In this document: piece after piece, positions 3,631 to 62,676 of the stretch | Layout: every line of letters begins with the position of its first letter | How positions within the stretch are numbered: position 1 is the stretch's first letter | Source: Demequina sp. NBRC 110051 | Lineage (GTDB): Bacteria; Actinomycetota; Actinomycetes; Actinomycetales; Demequinaceae | DNA length: 64,000 nucleotides | Direction: 5' to 3' | Assembly: GCF_002090055.1 (NCBI RefSeq) | Contig: NZ_BBRH01000013.1 | Span: 1-64,000 of the forward strand | Notes under the pieces: model-generated | What the model saw: only the letters and a program-made list of their open reading frames with translations | Told to the model about the DNA's origin: nothing | Database searches by the model: none | Translations under genes and position numbers: made by a program

Positions 3631-4940
3631 GCGCCCCCATCGTCATCACCCACGTGTCGCTCTACGGCGACACCCCGTCCGACATCGTCATCGTCGACGG
3701 CACCATTTCTTCCTTGACGGCGGCCGATGCGCCCGCCGAGGCTCGTACCATCGACGGTACCGGTCTGGTCGCCCTTCCGGGCTTGGTTGACCTCCACACT
3801 CACCTTCGTGAGCCCGGTCGGGAGGACGCCGAGACCATCGAGACCGGGTCCCGCTCGGCAGCGCGCGGCGGCTTCACCGCCGTCCACGCCATGGCCAACA
3901 CGACGCCCACCGCGGACACCGCCGGCGTGGTCGAGCTCGTCGCGAGCCGCGGCCGCGAGGTGGGCCTGGTCGACGTCTACCCGGTCGGCGCCGTCACGGT
4001 GGGGCTCAATGGCACCCAACTGTCCGAGATGGGCGCCATGGCCAACTCCCGTGCCCAGGTGCGGGTCTTTAGCGACGACGGCAAGTGCGTGCACGACCCG
4101 CTGCTCATGCGCCGCGCCCTCGAATACGTGAAGACCTTCGACGGCGTCATCGCCCAGCACGCGCAGGAGCCGCGCCTCACCGAGGGCTCGCAGATGCATG
4201 AGGGCCTCGTCTCGGCCGAGCTGGGACTGGCCGGATGGCCCGCCGTCGCCGAGGAGTCGATCATCGCCCGCGACGTGCTCCTCGCCGAACACGTCGGCTC
4301 GCGCGTGCACATCTGCCACCTCTCGACTGCGGGCTCCGTGGACATCGTTCGCTGGGCCAAGGCCCGAGGCATTCAGGTGACGGCCGAGGCCATGCCGCAC
4401 CACCTGCTGCTGACCGACGAGTCCGCCCGCGGCTACGACCCCCGCTTCAAGGTCAACCCGCCGTTGCGCACCCAGGAGGACGTCGACGCCCTGCGCGCCG
4501 GTCTCGAGGACGGCACCATCGACATCGTGGCCACCGACCACGCGCCGCACCCGGACGAGGACAAGGACTGCGAGTGGGGCGCCGCCGCCTTCGGCATGAT
4601 CGGCCTCGAGACCGCACTCGGCATCGTCCAGAAGACCATGGTCGACACCGGACGTCTCACCTGGCGCGACGTGGCCCGTATCCTGTCGGAAACCCCGGCC
4701 AGCATCGGCCGCGACGAGGCCCACGGCCGCCCCCTCGCCGTCGGCGAACCCGCCAACATCACGCTGGTGGACCCCGCCGCCGCCTGGACGGTGGACCCCG
4801 CGGGCACCGACTCGCGCAGCAACAACTCGCCGTTCGGCGGGATCGAGCTTCCGGGACGTGCCGTCGCGACCTTCCTGCGCGGCACCCCCACCTATATCGA
4901 CGACCGTTTCACCGCGCTGACAGAAGGAGCCCCCGCGTGA
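3627..4940 (+). CDS. pyrC: Dihydroorotase
   Basis: The 437-residue enzyme cyclises carbamoylaspartate to dihydroorotate. The metal-binding HTH triplet lies at 57-59 within DLHTHLREPG, followed by a HAQE histidine and ATDHAPH near the C-terminus, as in type I dihydroorotases of the amidohydrolase superfamily. It sits between pyrB and carA with GTGA overlaps on both sides. In several actinobacteria a small membrane protein gene lies between pyrC and carA; it is absent here. Confidence 0.96.
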   Translation: MSAPIVITHVSLYGDTPSDIVIVDGTISSLTAADAPAEARTIDGTGLVALPGLVDLHTHLREPGREDAETIETGSRSAARGGFTAVHAMANTTPTADTAGVVELVASRGREVGLVDVYPVGAVTVGLNGTQLSEMGAMANSRAQVRVFSDDGKCVHDPLLMRRALEYVKTFDGVIAQHAQEPRLTEGSQMHEGLVSAELGLAGWPAVAEESIIARDVLLAEHVGSRVHICHLSTAGSVDIVRWAKARGIQVTAEAMPHHLLLTDESARGYDPRFKVNPPLRTQEDVDALRAGLEDGTIDIVATDHAPHPDEDKDCEWGAAAFGMIGLETALGIVQKTMVDTGRLTWRDVARILSETPASIGRDEAHGRPLAVGEPANITLVDPAAAWTVDPAGTDSRSNNSPFGGIELPGRAVATFLRGTPTYIDDRFTALTEGAPA

Positions 4941-6085
4941 CCGACTCCACCGCGCTGCTCGTCCTTGAGGACGGCCGCACCTTTGAGGGCAAGGCGTACG
5001 GCGCCACCGGCCAGACCCTGGGCGAGATCGTCTTCAACACCGGCATGACCGGCTACCAGGAGACCCTCACCGACCCGTCGTATCACCGTCAGATCGTCGT
5101 GATGACCGCGCCGCACATCGGCAACACCGGCGTGAACGACGAGGACGACGAGAGCCGCAAGATCTGGGTCGCCGGCTACGTGGTGCGCGACCCTGCACGC
5201 AAGCCCTCCAACTGGCGCTCGCAGCGCAACTTGGAGGATGACCTCCGTGACCAGGGGATCGTCGGCATCTCGGGCATCGACACGCGGCAGCTGACGCGCA
5301 TCCTGCGCGAGGGCGTCATGCGCGCCGGCGTCTTCTCCGGTGAGGCGCTCGCCCCGGGCGGGGTGCGTTGTGACACCGAGGAACTGGTCGAGCGCGTCAA
5401 GGGTGCCGAGTCCATGGCCGGCGCCCACCTCGCCGACGATGCTTCGACCGACGAGGCCTACGTGGTGGAGCCCCCGGCCGGCGTCGACACCGTCGCGAAC
5501 GTGGTCGCGGTGGATCTCGGCATTAAGGCCATGACCCCGCAGATGATGGCCGAGCGCGGCATCCGCGTCACCGTGGTGCCCTCCGATTGGACCGCTGAGC
5601 AGATCCTCGAGTCCCAGCCCGACGGCGTCTTCTACTCGAACGGCCCCGGCGACCCGGCCGCCGCCGAGCGCTCCGTCGCGACCCTGAAGCAGATCCTCGA
5701 CACCAAGACGCCGTTCTTCGGCATCTGCTTCGGCAACCAGCTGCTGGGCCGCGCCCTCGGGTTTGGCACCTACAAGCTCCAGTTCGGCCACCGCGGCATC
5801 AACCAGCCCGTCATGGACCGCACCACCGGCAAGGTCGAGGTCACCGCGCACAACCACGGCTTCGCCGTCGACGCGCCTCTCGACGGTGACACCGACAGCC
5901 CCGCGGGCTACGGCCGCGTCAAGGTCAGCCACGTGTGCCTCAACGACGACGTGGTCGAGGGCCTCGAATGCCTCGACCTTCCCGCCTTTTCCGTCCAGTA
6001 CCACCCCGAGGCCGCTGCCGGCCCCCACGATGCGGCATACCTGTTCGACCGCTTCGTGGACGTCATGAAGGGAGTGCGCGCCTGA
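4937..6085 (+). CDS. carA: Carbamoyl-phosphate synthase small (glutaminase) chain
   Basis: The enzyme supplies ammonia from glutamine to CarB. The 382-residue protein has the N-terminal CPSase small-chain domain and a class I glutamine amidotransferase domain with nucleophile Cys264 (GICFGNQ) and His356/Glu358 (YHPE). The GTG at 4937 is chosen because it overlaps the pyrC stop as GTGA and begins at the family's conserved N-terminus; the open frame runs further upstream only as an artefact inside pyrC. The stop overlaps carB by one base (TGATG). Confidence 0.95.
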   Translation: MTDSTALLVLEDGRTFEGKAYGATGQTLGEIVFNTGMTGYQETLTDPSYHRQIVVMTAPHIGNTGVNDEDDESRKIWVAGYVVRDPARKPSNWRSQRNLEDDLRDQGIVGISGIDTRQLTRILREGVMRAGVFSGEALAPGGVRCDTEELVERVKGAESMAGAHLADDASTDEAYVVEPPAGVDTVANVVAVDLGIKAMTPQMMAERGIRVTVVPSDWTAEQILESQPDGVFYSNGPGDPAAAERSVATLKQILDTKTPFFGICFGNQLLGRALGFGTYKLQFGHRGINQPVMDRTTGKVEVTAHNHGFAVDAPLDGDTDSPAGYGRVKVSHVCLNDDVVEGLECLDLPAFSVQYHPEAAAGPHDAAYLFDRFVDVMKGVRA

Positions 6086-62049: not shown

Positions 62050-62055
62050 GACGCC

Positions 62056-62676
62056 ATGAGGATCACGACTGCAGTGTCAGGACCGGTGGTGGAAGACGCG
62101 CCCGTGGTGCTCTTGCTCCACGGCTACGGGTCGCACGAGCGTGACTTGGTGGGGCTGACCTCGTGGCTGCCCTCGGGCGTCTCCTGGGCGTCGCTGCGCG
62201 CGCCCGGTGACATGGGATTTGGGGGCTACGAGTGGTTCCCGCTGTCACTTCCGGACGAGCCATCTCAAGCCGGCGCGCGCGAGGCGGTGGAGGCGATCTG
62301 GGAGTGGGTCGACGGGTCCTTGGCGCCCGAGGTGCCCGTAGTCCCTCTCGGTTTTTCCCAAGGAGGCCTGATGGCGCTCGAGATGCTGCGTACGCGGCCC
62401 ATGCGTGTGCCGGCCGCCGTATGTCTGTCGGGCTTCGTGACGGTTGAGGGGGCGGGGGCCGATGCTGGTTTGGCCGGGTTGCGTCCCCCGGTTTTCTGGG
62501 GGCGCGGACTGCTGGATCAGGTGATCTGGCCGGCCGCCGTGGCGCGGACGGCGACGTGGCTCGAGGCGCACACGACCCTTTCGCGACACGAGTATCCGGG
62601 GCTTGCACACGGTGTGGAGCCCGGCGAGATGGACGATGTAGCGGCGTTCTTGAGGTCGGTGCTTTCGCTGCCGTAA
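62056..62676 (+). CDS. Phospholipase/carboxylesterase-family hydrolase
   Basis: The 206-residue protein is an alpha/beta hydrolase with LLLHGYGSHERD, nucleophile Ser101 in LGFSQGG, and likely Asp154 and His185 of the triad. The size and motifs match the small carboxylesterase/lysophospholipase group that includes acyl-protein thioesterases. Start 62056 is supported by the spacing to CATACT; the open frame further upstream overlaps osmC. Confidence 0.87.
   Translation: MRITTAVSGPVVEDAPVVLLLHGYGSHERDLVGLTSWLPSGVSWASLRAPGDMGFGGYEWFPLSLPDEPSQAGAREAVEAIWEWVDGSLAPEVPVVPLGFSQGGLMALEMLRTRPMRVPAAVCLSGFVTVEGAGADAGLAGLRPPVFWGRGLLDQVIWPAAVARTATWLEAHTTLSRHEYPGLAHGVEPGEMDDVAAFLRSVLSLP

Follow-up and report, generated by a model that had tools for sequence, protein, structure and literature searches.

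A short word with dialects, over-represented across the genus Demequina, is probably a DNA uptake sequence

The stretch considered here, referred to below as the window, consists of the first 64,000 nucleotides of contig NZ_BBRH01000013.1 of Demequina sp. NBRC 110051, and is scattered with a nine-base word, GCATCGGCC, of which it holds 48 copies (26 on the forward and 22 on the reverse strand). Its gene for the large subunit of carbamoyl-phosphate synthase encodes a protein that is 85% identical, over the best segment, to the one of Demequina lignilytica, which agrees with a source in Demequina (Demequinaceae, Actinomycetota). By thresholds of our choosing, 38 of the 44 genomes of this genus have a dominant word of this uptake-sequence-like kind, spelt in one of several dialects, and we regard this as a strongly supported genomic fact. 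Judging from sequence, it is probable that GCATCGGCC is a DNA uptake sequence of a naturally competent Demequina species, and that the genus possesses a set of dialects of it. An initial annotation of the window had likened the word to uptake sequences; that suggestion gains from its genome-wide excess on both strands, from the dialects and their conversion in place, from a conserved flank and from the presence of type IV pilus and com genes.

The strong over-representation claimed by that annotation was borne out. Dinucleotide shuffling of the window left a mean of 2.76 copies (maximum 11 in 100 shuffles), an order-3 Markov model predicts 3.6, and GCATCGGCC ranks first among the over-represented 9-mers of the window. 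All 39 of the positions listed initially are exact copies, and the total of about 39 was too low, nine copies having been overlooked (those starting at 1972, 4702, 7522, 7796, 10556, 12790, 20261, 34735 and 41166). An extended 14-mer, CCACGGCATCGGCC, said to occur six times, was counted seven times. Intergenic copies, estimated initially at about nine, number 10 of 48 (in an intergenic total of 6,576 bases) by gene calls made with our own codon-usage script rather than a standard gene finder; a cruder gene set places 15 of the 48 between genes. In the genome as a whole (G000 in our numbering; 2,754,137 bases in 25 contigs) there are 838 + 849 = 1687 copies, against 47 + 40 = 87 of the same word read backwards, so that genome-wide counts, far from falling to expectation, stand about 19-fold above this control; occurrence in both orientations at about one copy per 1.6 kb likewise holds across the genome.

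Codon or protein bias can be excluded as the cause, as the initial annotation had supposed. A 324 kb sample of G000, made up of 240 kb from contig C6, the whole window and 20 kb around pilB, contains 151 copies in genes predicted by the same script and 37 between genes (0.54 and 0.81 per kb, respectively). Synonymous shuffling across the sample left only 16.1 genic copies (standard deviation 3.9, maximum 26; 100 shuffles), and shuffling within each gene left 18.0 (standard deviation 3.5, maximum 26; 100 shuffles). Ala-Asp-Ala, read in antisense, corresponds to 90 of the 151 genic copies, and Ala-Ser-Ala to 41.

The word is non-palindromic, with a 9-bp core and a semi-conserved 5' flank of about 11 bp. 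The core is sharp, because most single-substitution forms occur near expectation in G000 (a few with a changed end base rise to roughly double that level); some forms substituted at places 8 and 9 are more enriched in G023 and G009. In the 36 readable intergenic copies, the flank before the core runs A(-11) G C/G C(-8) G G/A C(-5) C(-4) A(-3) C G, and the core is followed by G T C. The flank is weaker in genic copies, and weaker still at most places in control words of the same codon phases. That the word might belong to a dispersed mobile or REP-like (repetitive extragenic palindromic) repeat, or reflect codon or protein bias, could draw on one pair in the window that forms a terminator-like hairpin, but similarity around the copies extends only about 11 bp on the left side and 3 bp on the right, too short for a long or REP-like repeat, the units are not palindromic over tens of bases, and the excess disappears on synonymous shuffling; we find this explanation hardly credible, and count it as already refuted. 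The hairpin itself, predicted initially as an inverted-pair terminator, is indeed terminator-like when computed from the copies at 61502 and 61530 (-39.2 kcal/mol, z -6.3, 18-bp stem). Ten neighbouring pairs lie within 60 bp of each other in the 324 kb sample, and seven of the ten are inverted.

Dialect words were sought in the window's genome and 43 other Demequina genomes by k-mer enrichment in samples of 3.5 to 240 kb from each genome, together with whole-genome counts, a genome being assigned to dialect A if it had at least 400 copies of GCATCGGCC and more than of the B word, and to dialect B if it had at least 900 copies of GCATCGTCC (cut-offs that we chose ourselves). By these rules, the A word is dominant in 20 of the 44 genomes (409 to 2018 copies) and the B word in 16 (929 to 1864 copies; reversed control 8 to 23), while a third word, AGCGTCGG followed by G or A, characterizes dialect C in two (G009, 1161 copies, control 59; G012, 410 copies, control 107). 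The dialects vary at places 3, 7 and 8 of the nine, and the middle TCG is constant. One genome, G022, has both words (A, 664 copies; B, 1294) and is perhaps a dialect in transition. Outside the genus (three genomes of the same family and 102 from 19 further families of the order), the A word occurs 9 to 478 times per genome, at 0.25 to about 10 times its control, the highest ratio being that of 227 copies in 2.7 Mb; this is not comparable with the counts inside Demequina. As a positive control of the counting method, the Neisseria word was sought in 200 genomes of another order: two had 1863 and 2499 copies, comparable in order of magnitude with the density of the Demequina word, and the other 198 had at most 21.

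The dialects share their TCG core and follow the housekeeping tree. In a tree built from AlaS, AroE, MltG and RuvX of 20 genomes, 19 of them with a dialect label, the 10 A genomes form one clade and the B genomes, with the C genome G012, another, the second C genome (G009) standing apart with G018. Three dialect changes suffice on this tree, compared with a mean of 7.5 to 7.7 (minimum 4 to 5) for shuffled labels, and three also suffice on a tree of ComEA plus ComEC (30 genomes, 26 labelled; shuffles 9.0).

Individual sites are conserved within a dialect. In blastn alignments between sampled stretches, with 9-mers of equal GC (guanine plus cytosine) content as controls, and with aligned sites counted per genome pair, so that related pairs repeat, the A word was kept at 40 of 160 sites (controls, 299 of 3416) at 70-75% identity, 90 of 303 (792 of 5064) at 75-80%, 115 of 181 (545 of 2460) at 80-85% and 34 of 48 (236 of 646) at 85-90%. 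The corresponding figures for the B word were 58 of 217 (1007 of 8053), 204 of 514 (2162 of 10825), 375 of 723 (4266 of 16011) and 339 of 531 (3462 of 10212), with 73 of 88 (914 of 1870) at 90-95%. Above 70% identity, sites within a dialect are thus kept about 1.7 to 2.9 times as often as the controls. The A word still exceeds its control at 65-70% identity (8 of 45 versus 77 of 1318), and below 65% none of three aligned sites was kept. Between dialects, the words sometimes convert in place: of the 786 B sites with an alignment in A species, 64 show GCATCGGCC there, more than any other form, and 22 show GCATCGTCC; of the 1068 A sites with an alignment in B species, 64 show GCATCGTCC and 97 retain GCATCGGCC.

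This conservation and conversion of homologous sites speaks against the idea of a methylation or restriction site, or of a mutation or repair bias of the HIP1 kind. The sharpness of the word, with little halo of mismatched forms, would suit it, and HIP1, like the Demequina word, is over-represented; HIP1, however, is palindromic, and the Demequina word is not, having 9 bp plus a flank, and restriction favours avoidance of a site rather than its excess. We consider such an origin very improbable.

No strand bias was found in any of 20 contiguous stretches (from 19 genomes, plus the window; summed chi-squared 7.0 on 20 degrees of freedom), in a test made without locating origin, terminus or replichores, and this argues against Chi-like words and against words that orient FtsK (FtsK-orienting polar sequences, KOPS, or SpoIIIE recognition sequences, SRS); nor did the 20 stretches show polarity towards a terminus of the kind that an FtsK-orienting word would have. 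Over whole genomes, the dominant word is in fact divided more evenly between the two strands than chance would make it (38 genomes; chi-squared 10.4 on 38 degrees of freedom, lower tail 2.5e-6), and the balance is normal for the non-dominant words (22.9 on 24 and 37.8 on 28) and for the reversed control (39.4 on 44).

Neighbouring copies, moreover, tend to alternate in orientation. In sampled stretches of 31 genomes, 631 adjacent pairs were opposite and 388 the same in orientation, giving an opposite fraction of 0.619, compared with 0.474 (standard deviation 0.035, maximum 0.573) for 72 similarly abundant control 8-mers; the A word taken separately gives 0.58 and the B word 0.64, and their single-substitution neighbours 0.47 and 0.47. 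With homologous pairs removed, the figures are 547 opposite and 357 the same (A, 203:150; B, 294:179; C, 50:28), and with each site counted once and gaps limited to less than 3 kb, 187 and 108 (p 5e-6). Same-orientation pairs occur at 0.47 to 0.72 of expectation between 150 and 1000 bp, at 0.97 between 1000 and 1500 bp and at 0.61 between 1500 and 2000 bp, and opposite-orientation pairs at 0.73 to 1.64 over the same range (the value of 0.73 being that of divergent pairs at 1500 to 2000 bp). This suggests that one copy makes a neighbour of the same orientation within about 2 kb redundant; since copies of opposite orientation show no such avoidance, we infer that a single copy acts for one direction or one strand. 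Neither alternation nor the thinning of same-orientation copies is described in those parts of the uptake-sequence papers that are compared here.

Directional exclusion over about 2 kb might also be produced by a Chi-like word, at which a nuclease of the RecBCD, AddAB or AdnAB type stops and with which selection fills the genome: action in one direction could account for an exclusion confined to copies of the same orientation, and the occurrence of copies both within and between genes would also fit. Chi, though similarly over-represented, is biased to the leading strand and stable among relatives; the Demequina word lacks strand bias in all 20 stretches (with the reservation about replichores given above), possesses an extended flank and has three spellings in one genus, a change that would be hard to make for a nuclease whose sites in the cell number a thousand. 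We therefore think a Chi-like role unlikely. A site for nucleoid structure, segregation or chromosome organization (like KOPS/SRS, parS, matS or the sites of Noc and SlmA), or for some other intracellular binding protein, would accord with dense genome-wide occurrence and alternating orientation, but not with the lack of strand polarity, the switching of dialects, the greater density between genes or the sparseness of copies in a variable polysaccharide locus described below; and the gaps between copies fit an exponential distribution in the one 240 kb contig piece analysed (p 0.34). This, too, seems quite unlikely. The initial annotation had held methylation, segregation and nucleoid-protein sites to be equally possible, a parity that is not supported, given the lack of strand bias, the lack of a palindrome and the changes of spelling within the genus.

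How might such a word be used for uptake? The Demequina genomes carry genes for a type IV pilus and com genes, a matter of presence that is no proof of competence. ComEC (PF03772) was found in 43 of the 44 genomes, the exception being G005, which is 85% complete. In G009, G026 and G041 the ComEC matches are split over two frames, possibly by sequencing error or decay. ComEA-type proteins adjoin comEC in all 30 loci read, one of which was ended by the contig end. All 44 genomes have T2SSE ATPases, with at least one PilB-like match each at E 8e-95 or better. In G000 the genes run alaS-ruvX-mltG-aroE-pilB-pilT-pilC-pilA, and after them come genes for two prepilin-type proteins of about 600 and about 220 residues; each of the 20 loci read had relatives of all eight genes from alaS to pilA (apart from the T2SSE matches, the gene names are our own interpretation of sequence and position). 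A further prepilin, unlinked to the pilus cluster, was found in all 20 genomes read; it has 14 invariant columns, with two invariant cysteines in its last third, and its predicted structure (mean predicted local distance difference test score, pLDDT, 81) has as its nearest fold Thermus PilA4 (E 1.3e-4).

We envisage that a surface DNA receptor belonging to a type IV pilus/ComEA-ComEC machine would bind the 9-bp core, assisted by the 5' flank of about 11 bp, and that fragments bearing the word would be imported more often. Biased import followed by recombination could then cause the word to spread and persist by molecular drive, and the same drive would tend to keep transformation within a dialect; each copy would promote import in a single direction, or of a single strand. 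The chances seem to us evenly balanced that this amounts to an uptake system independent of those of Neisseriaceae and Pasteurellaceae, operating in cells that lack an outer membrane, comprising three or more dialects and having a directional or strand-specific recognition that is printed in the genome as alternating orientation.

Comparison with known systems reveals both likenesses and differences. The DNA uptake sequences (DUS) of Neisseriaceae are also short words, present there in thousands of copies, and their eight dialects have a common core and are consistent with the species tree (PMC3630211), although the core is CTG rather than the TCG of Demequina, the word is another, and Demequina belongs to another phylum, has 70% GC and lacks an outer membrane. 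The receptor in Neisseriaceae is ComP (PMC6370729), for which no counterpart was found in Demequina; the orientation exclusion reported here is that of Demequina. In Haemophilus influenzae, the orientation and position of the uptake signal sequence (USS) in a fragment have no effect on uptake (PMC1939737), whereas in Demequina copies of the same orientation exclude each other. Some mismatched forms of the Pasteurellaceae USS are over-represented (PMC7811141, PMC1939737), which is mostly not so in Demequina; on the other hand, the hairpin of two inverted copies resembles the terminator-like inverted pairs described for USS (PMC7811141). Nearer in phylogeny, Micrococcus luteus, also of the Actinomycetota, has a transformation system based on ComEA and ComEC (PMC4322843, PMC8467076, PMC12849477), but its pili are of the Flp/Tad type (PMC6370729), unlike those of Demequina; none of the main texts of those three Micrococcus papers contains 'uptake sequence', 'uptake signal' or 'sequence-specific'. 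A search of mainly open-licence literature found no publication giving Actinobacteria/Actinomycetota their own uptake sequences, and text matches to the bare word GCATCGGCC were, by title, chance-like among the matches listed.

Several points weigh against the uptake interpretation. No receptor was identified when the pilus cluster and the unlinked prepilin were considered. Trees of pilB-pilT-pilC and of the unlinked prepilin each need five dialect changes (n=19), compared with three for the housekeeping tree, and are still under the shuffle mean of about 7.6; the five steps of the pilus-cluster tree imply that pilus genes have seemingly been exchanged between dialects (for example, G039, of dialect A, falls beside G038, of dialect B), and we reject the cluster as the carrier of specificity. 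The unlinked prepilin was likewise rejected as a self-evident ComP-like receptor. Being acidic in all 20 genomes (net charge -4 to -16), it does not resemble a DNA binder and so cannot be proposed with confidence, and it differs greatly among relatives of one dialect (G006 and G023 versus G030). The ComEC and T2SSE families also match controls not usually called competent, such as Escherichia coli. Six of the 44 genomes have no clear word (G001, G003, G005, G013, G027 and G032), and five of these six have ComEC; in G001, G003 and G027 a scan confined to a motif-like pattern, which restricts what can appear, placed relatives such as GCGTCGTCC or GCGTCGGCG on top, at about two to three times expectation. 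Four genomes called A from whole-genome counts (G007, G021, G035 and G043) do not have the A word among the top words of their 20 kb samples, and G018 was labelled weak in the trees though its A count is 409. Labels for the analyses of conservation, strand and orientation cover 31 of the 44 genomes; the other 13 are G001, G003, G005, G007, G013, G018, G021, G027, G028, G029, G032, G035 and G043. At 65-70% identity the B word is no better kept than its control (2 of 43 versus 135 of 1853), and mismatched forms are mostly not in excess, though drive might leave a decaying halo of them. The window's own genome alternates only weakly by itself (89 opposite and 69 the same under 3 kb), and, species being kin, p-values taken over species are not independent and are optimistic. 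The literature search described above yielded no publication tying Demequina to DNA uptake or natural competence.

If the uptake interpretation is true, it would be surprising, such tags being described from two distant families: the Demequina word would add a third case, unrelated to the other two and from another phylum and type of cell envelope, and would suggest natural competence in Demequina. The 44 genomes, with their several dialects, would allow direct tests of the origin and switching of such words, of their role as a species barrier and of their directional reading by the machine, and rules of uptake (direction, and a reach of about 2 kb) would be readable from genome sequence alone.

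Newly acquired DNA would be expected to contain fewer copies of an uptake sequence. In the 240 kb contig piece, the four longest gaps between copies lie together at 138.3-177.1 kb (G000 contig C6:138316-177103), where there are four copies against 21.5 expected; as the region was picked after the fact for being poor in the motif, a p-value for it has no standing. Eight proteins tested there comprise one of Wzz type, two of Wzy types, two of glycosyltransferase types, a hydrolase and two with integrase cores, and this polysaccharide and insertion sequence (IS) locus is partly of lower GC content.

Table 1. Copies of the nine-base word in the window, and the hairpin formed by two of them
Feature	Position	Strand	Context
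copy of GCATCGGCC	1972..1980	+	intergenic
copy	3722..3730	-	genic
copy	4702..4710	+	genic
copy, extended CCACGGCATCGGCC	7522..7530	+	in carB
copy	7796..7804	+	in carB
copy	8055..8063	-	in carB
copy	10556..10564	+	genic
copy, extended 14-mer	11771..11779	-	genic
copy	12790..12798	+	genic
copy	12983..12991	+	genic
copy	15383..15391	+	genic
copy	16385..16393	+	genic
copy	17781..17789	-	genic
copy	19114..19122	+	genic
copy	20261..20269	+	genic
copy	21245..21253	-	genic
copy	21793..21801	-	in ribAB-type gene
copy	23040..23048	-	genic
copy, extended 14-mer	24174..24182	-	genic
copy	25491..25499	-	genic
copy	26480..26488	+	intergenic
copy, extended 14-mer	27948..27956	-	genic
copy	28035..28043	+	genic
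copy	28468..28476	+	genic
copy	31406..31414	+	intergenic
copy	31787..31795	-	in lnt-type gene
copy	34308..34316	-	intergenic
copy	34365..34373	+	genic
copy	34735..34743	-	genic
copy	35922..35930	-	genic
copy, extended 14-mer	37493..37501	-	genic
copy	38052..38060	+	intergenic
copy	39547..39555	+	in UvrA-like gene
copy	40380..40388	-	in UvrA-like gene
copy	40823..40831	+	genic
copy	41166..41174	+	genic
copy	41976..41984	-	genic
copy	46480..46488	+	in pyruvate carboxylase gene
copy	46803..46811	-	in pyruvate carboxylase gene
copy, extended 14-mer from 49767	49772..49780	+	intergenic by gene call, or far 5' end of longest pyruvate carboxylase frame
copy	52966..52974	-	intergenic
copy	55060..55068	-	genic
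copy, extended 14-mer from 55341	55346..55354	+	genic
copy	58115..58123	+	genic
copy	59973..59981	+	intergenic
copy, hairpin left arm	61502..61510	-	intergenic
copy, hairpin right arm	61530..61538	+	intergenic
copy	62457..62465	-	genic
terminator-like hairpin, two inverted copies	61500..61540	.	between convergent genes 59997-61472 (+) and 61551-62033 (-)

Finally, we draw attention to two further genes of the window: 38080-40431 encodes a UvrA-like protein of 783 residues that falls under the family cut-off, and 28570-31311 a Hel308-like helicase of 913 residues, under its cut-offs.

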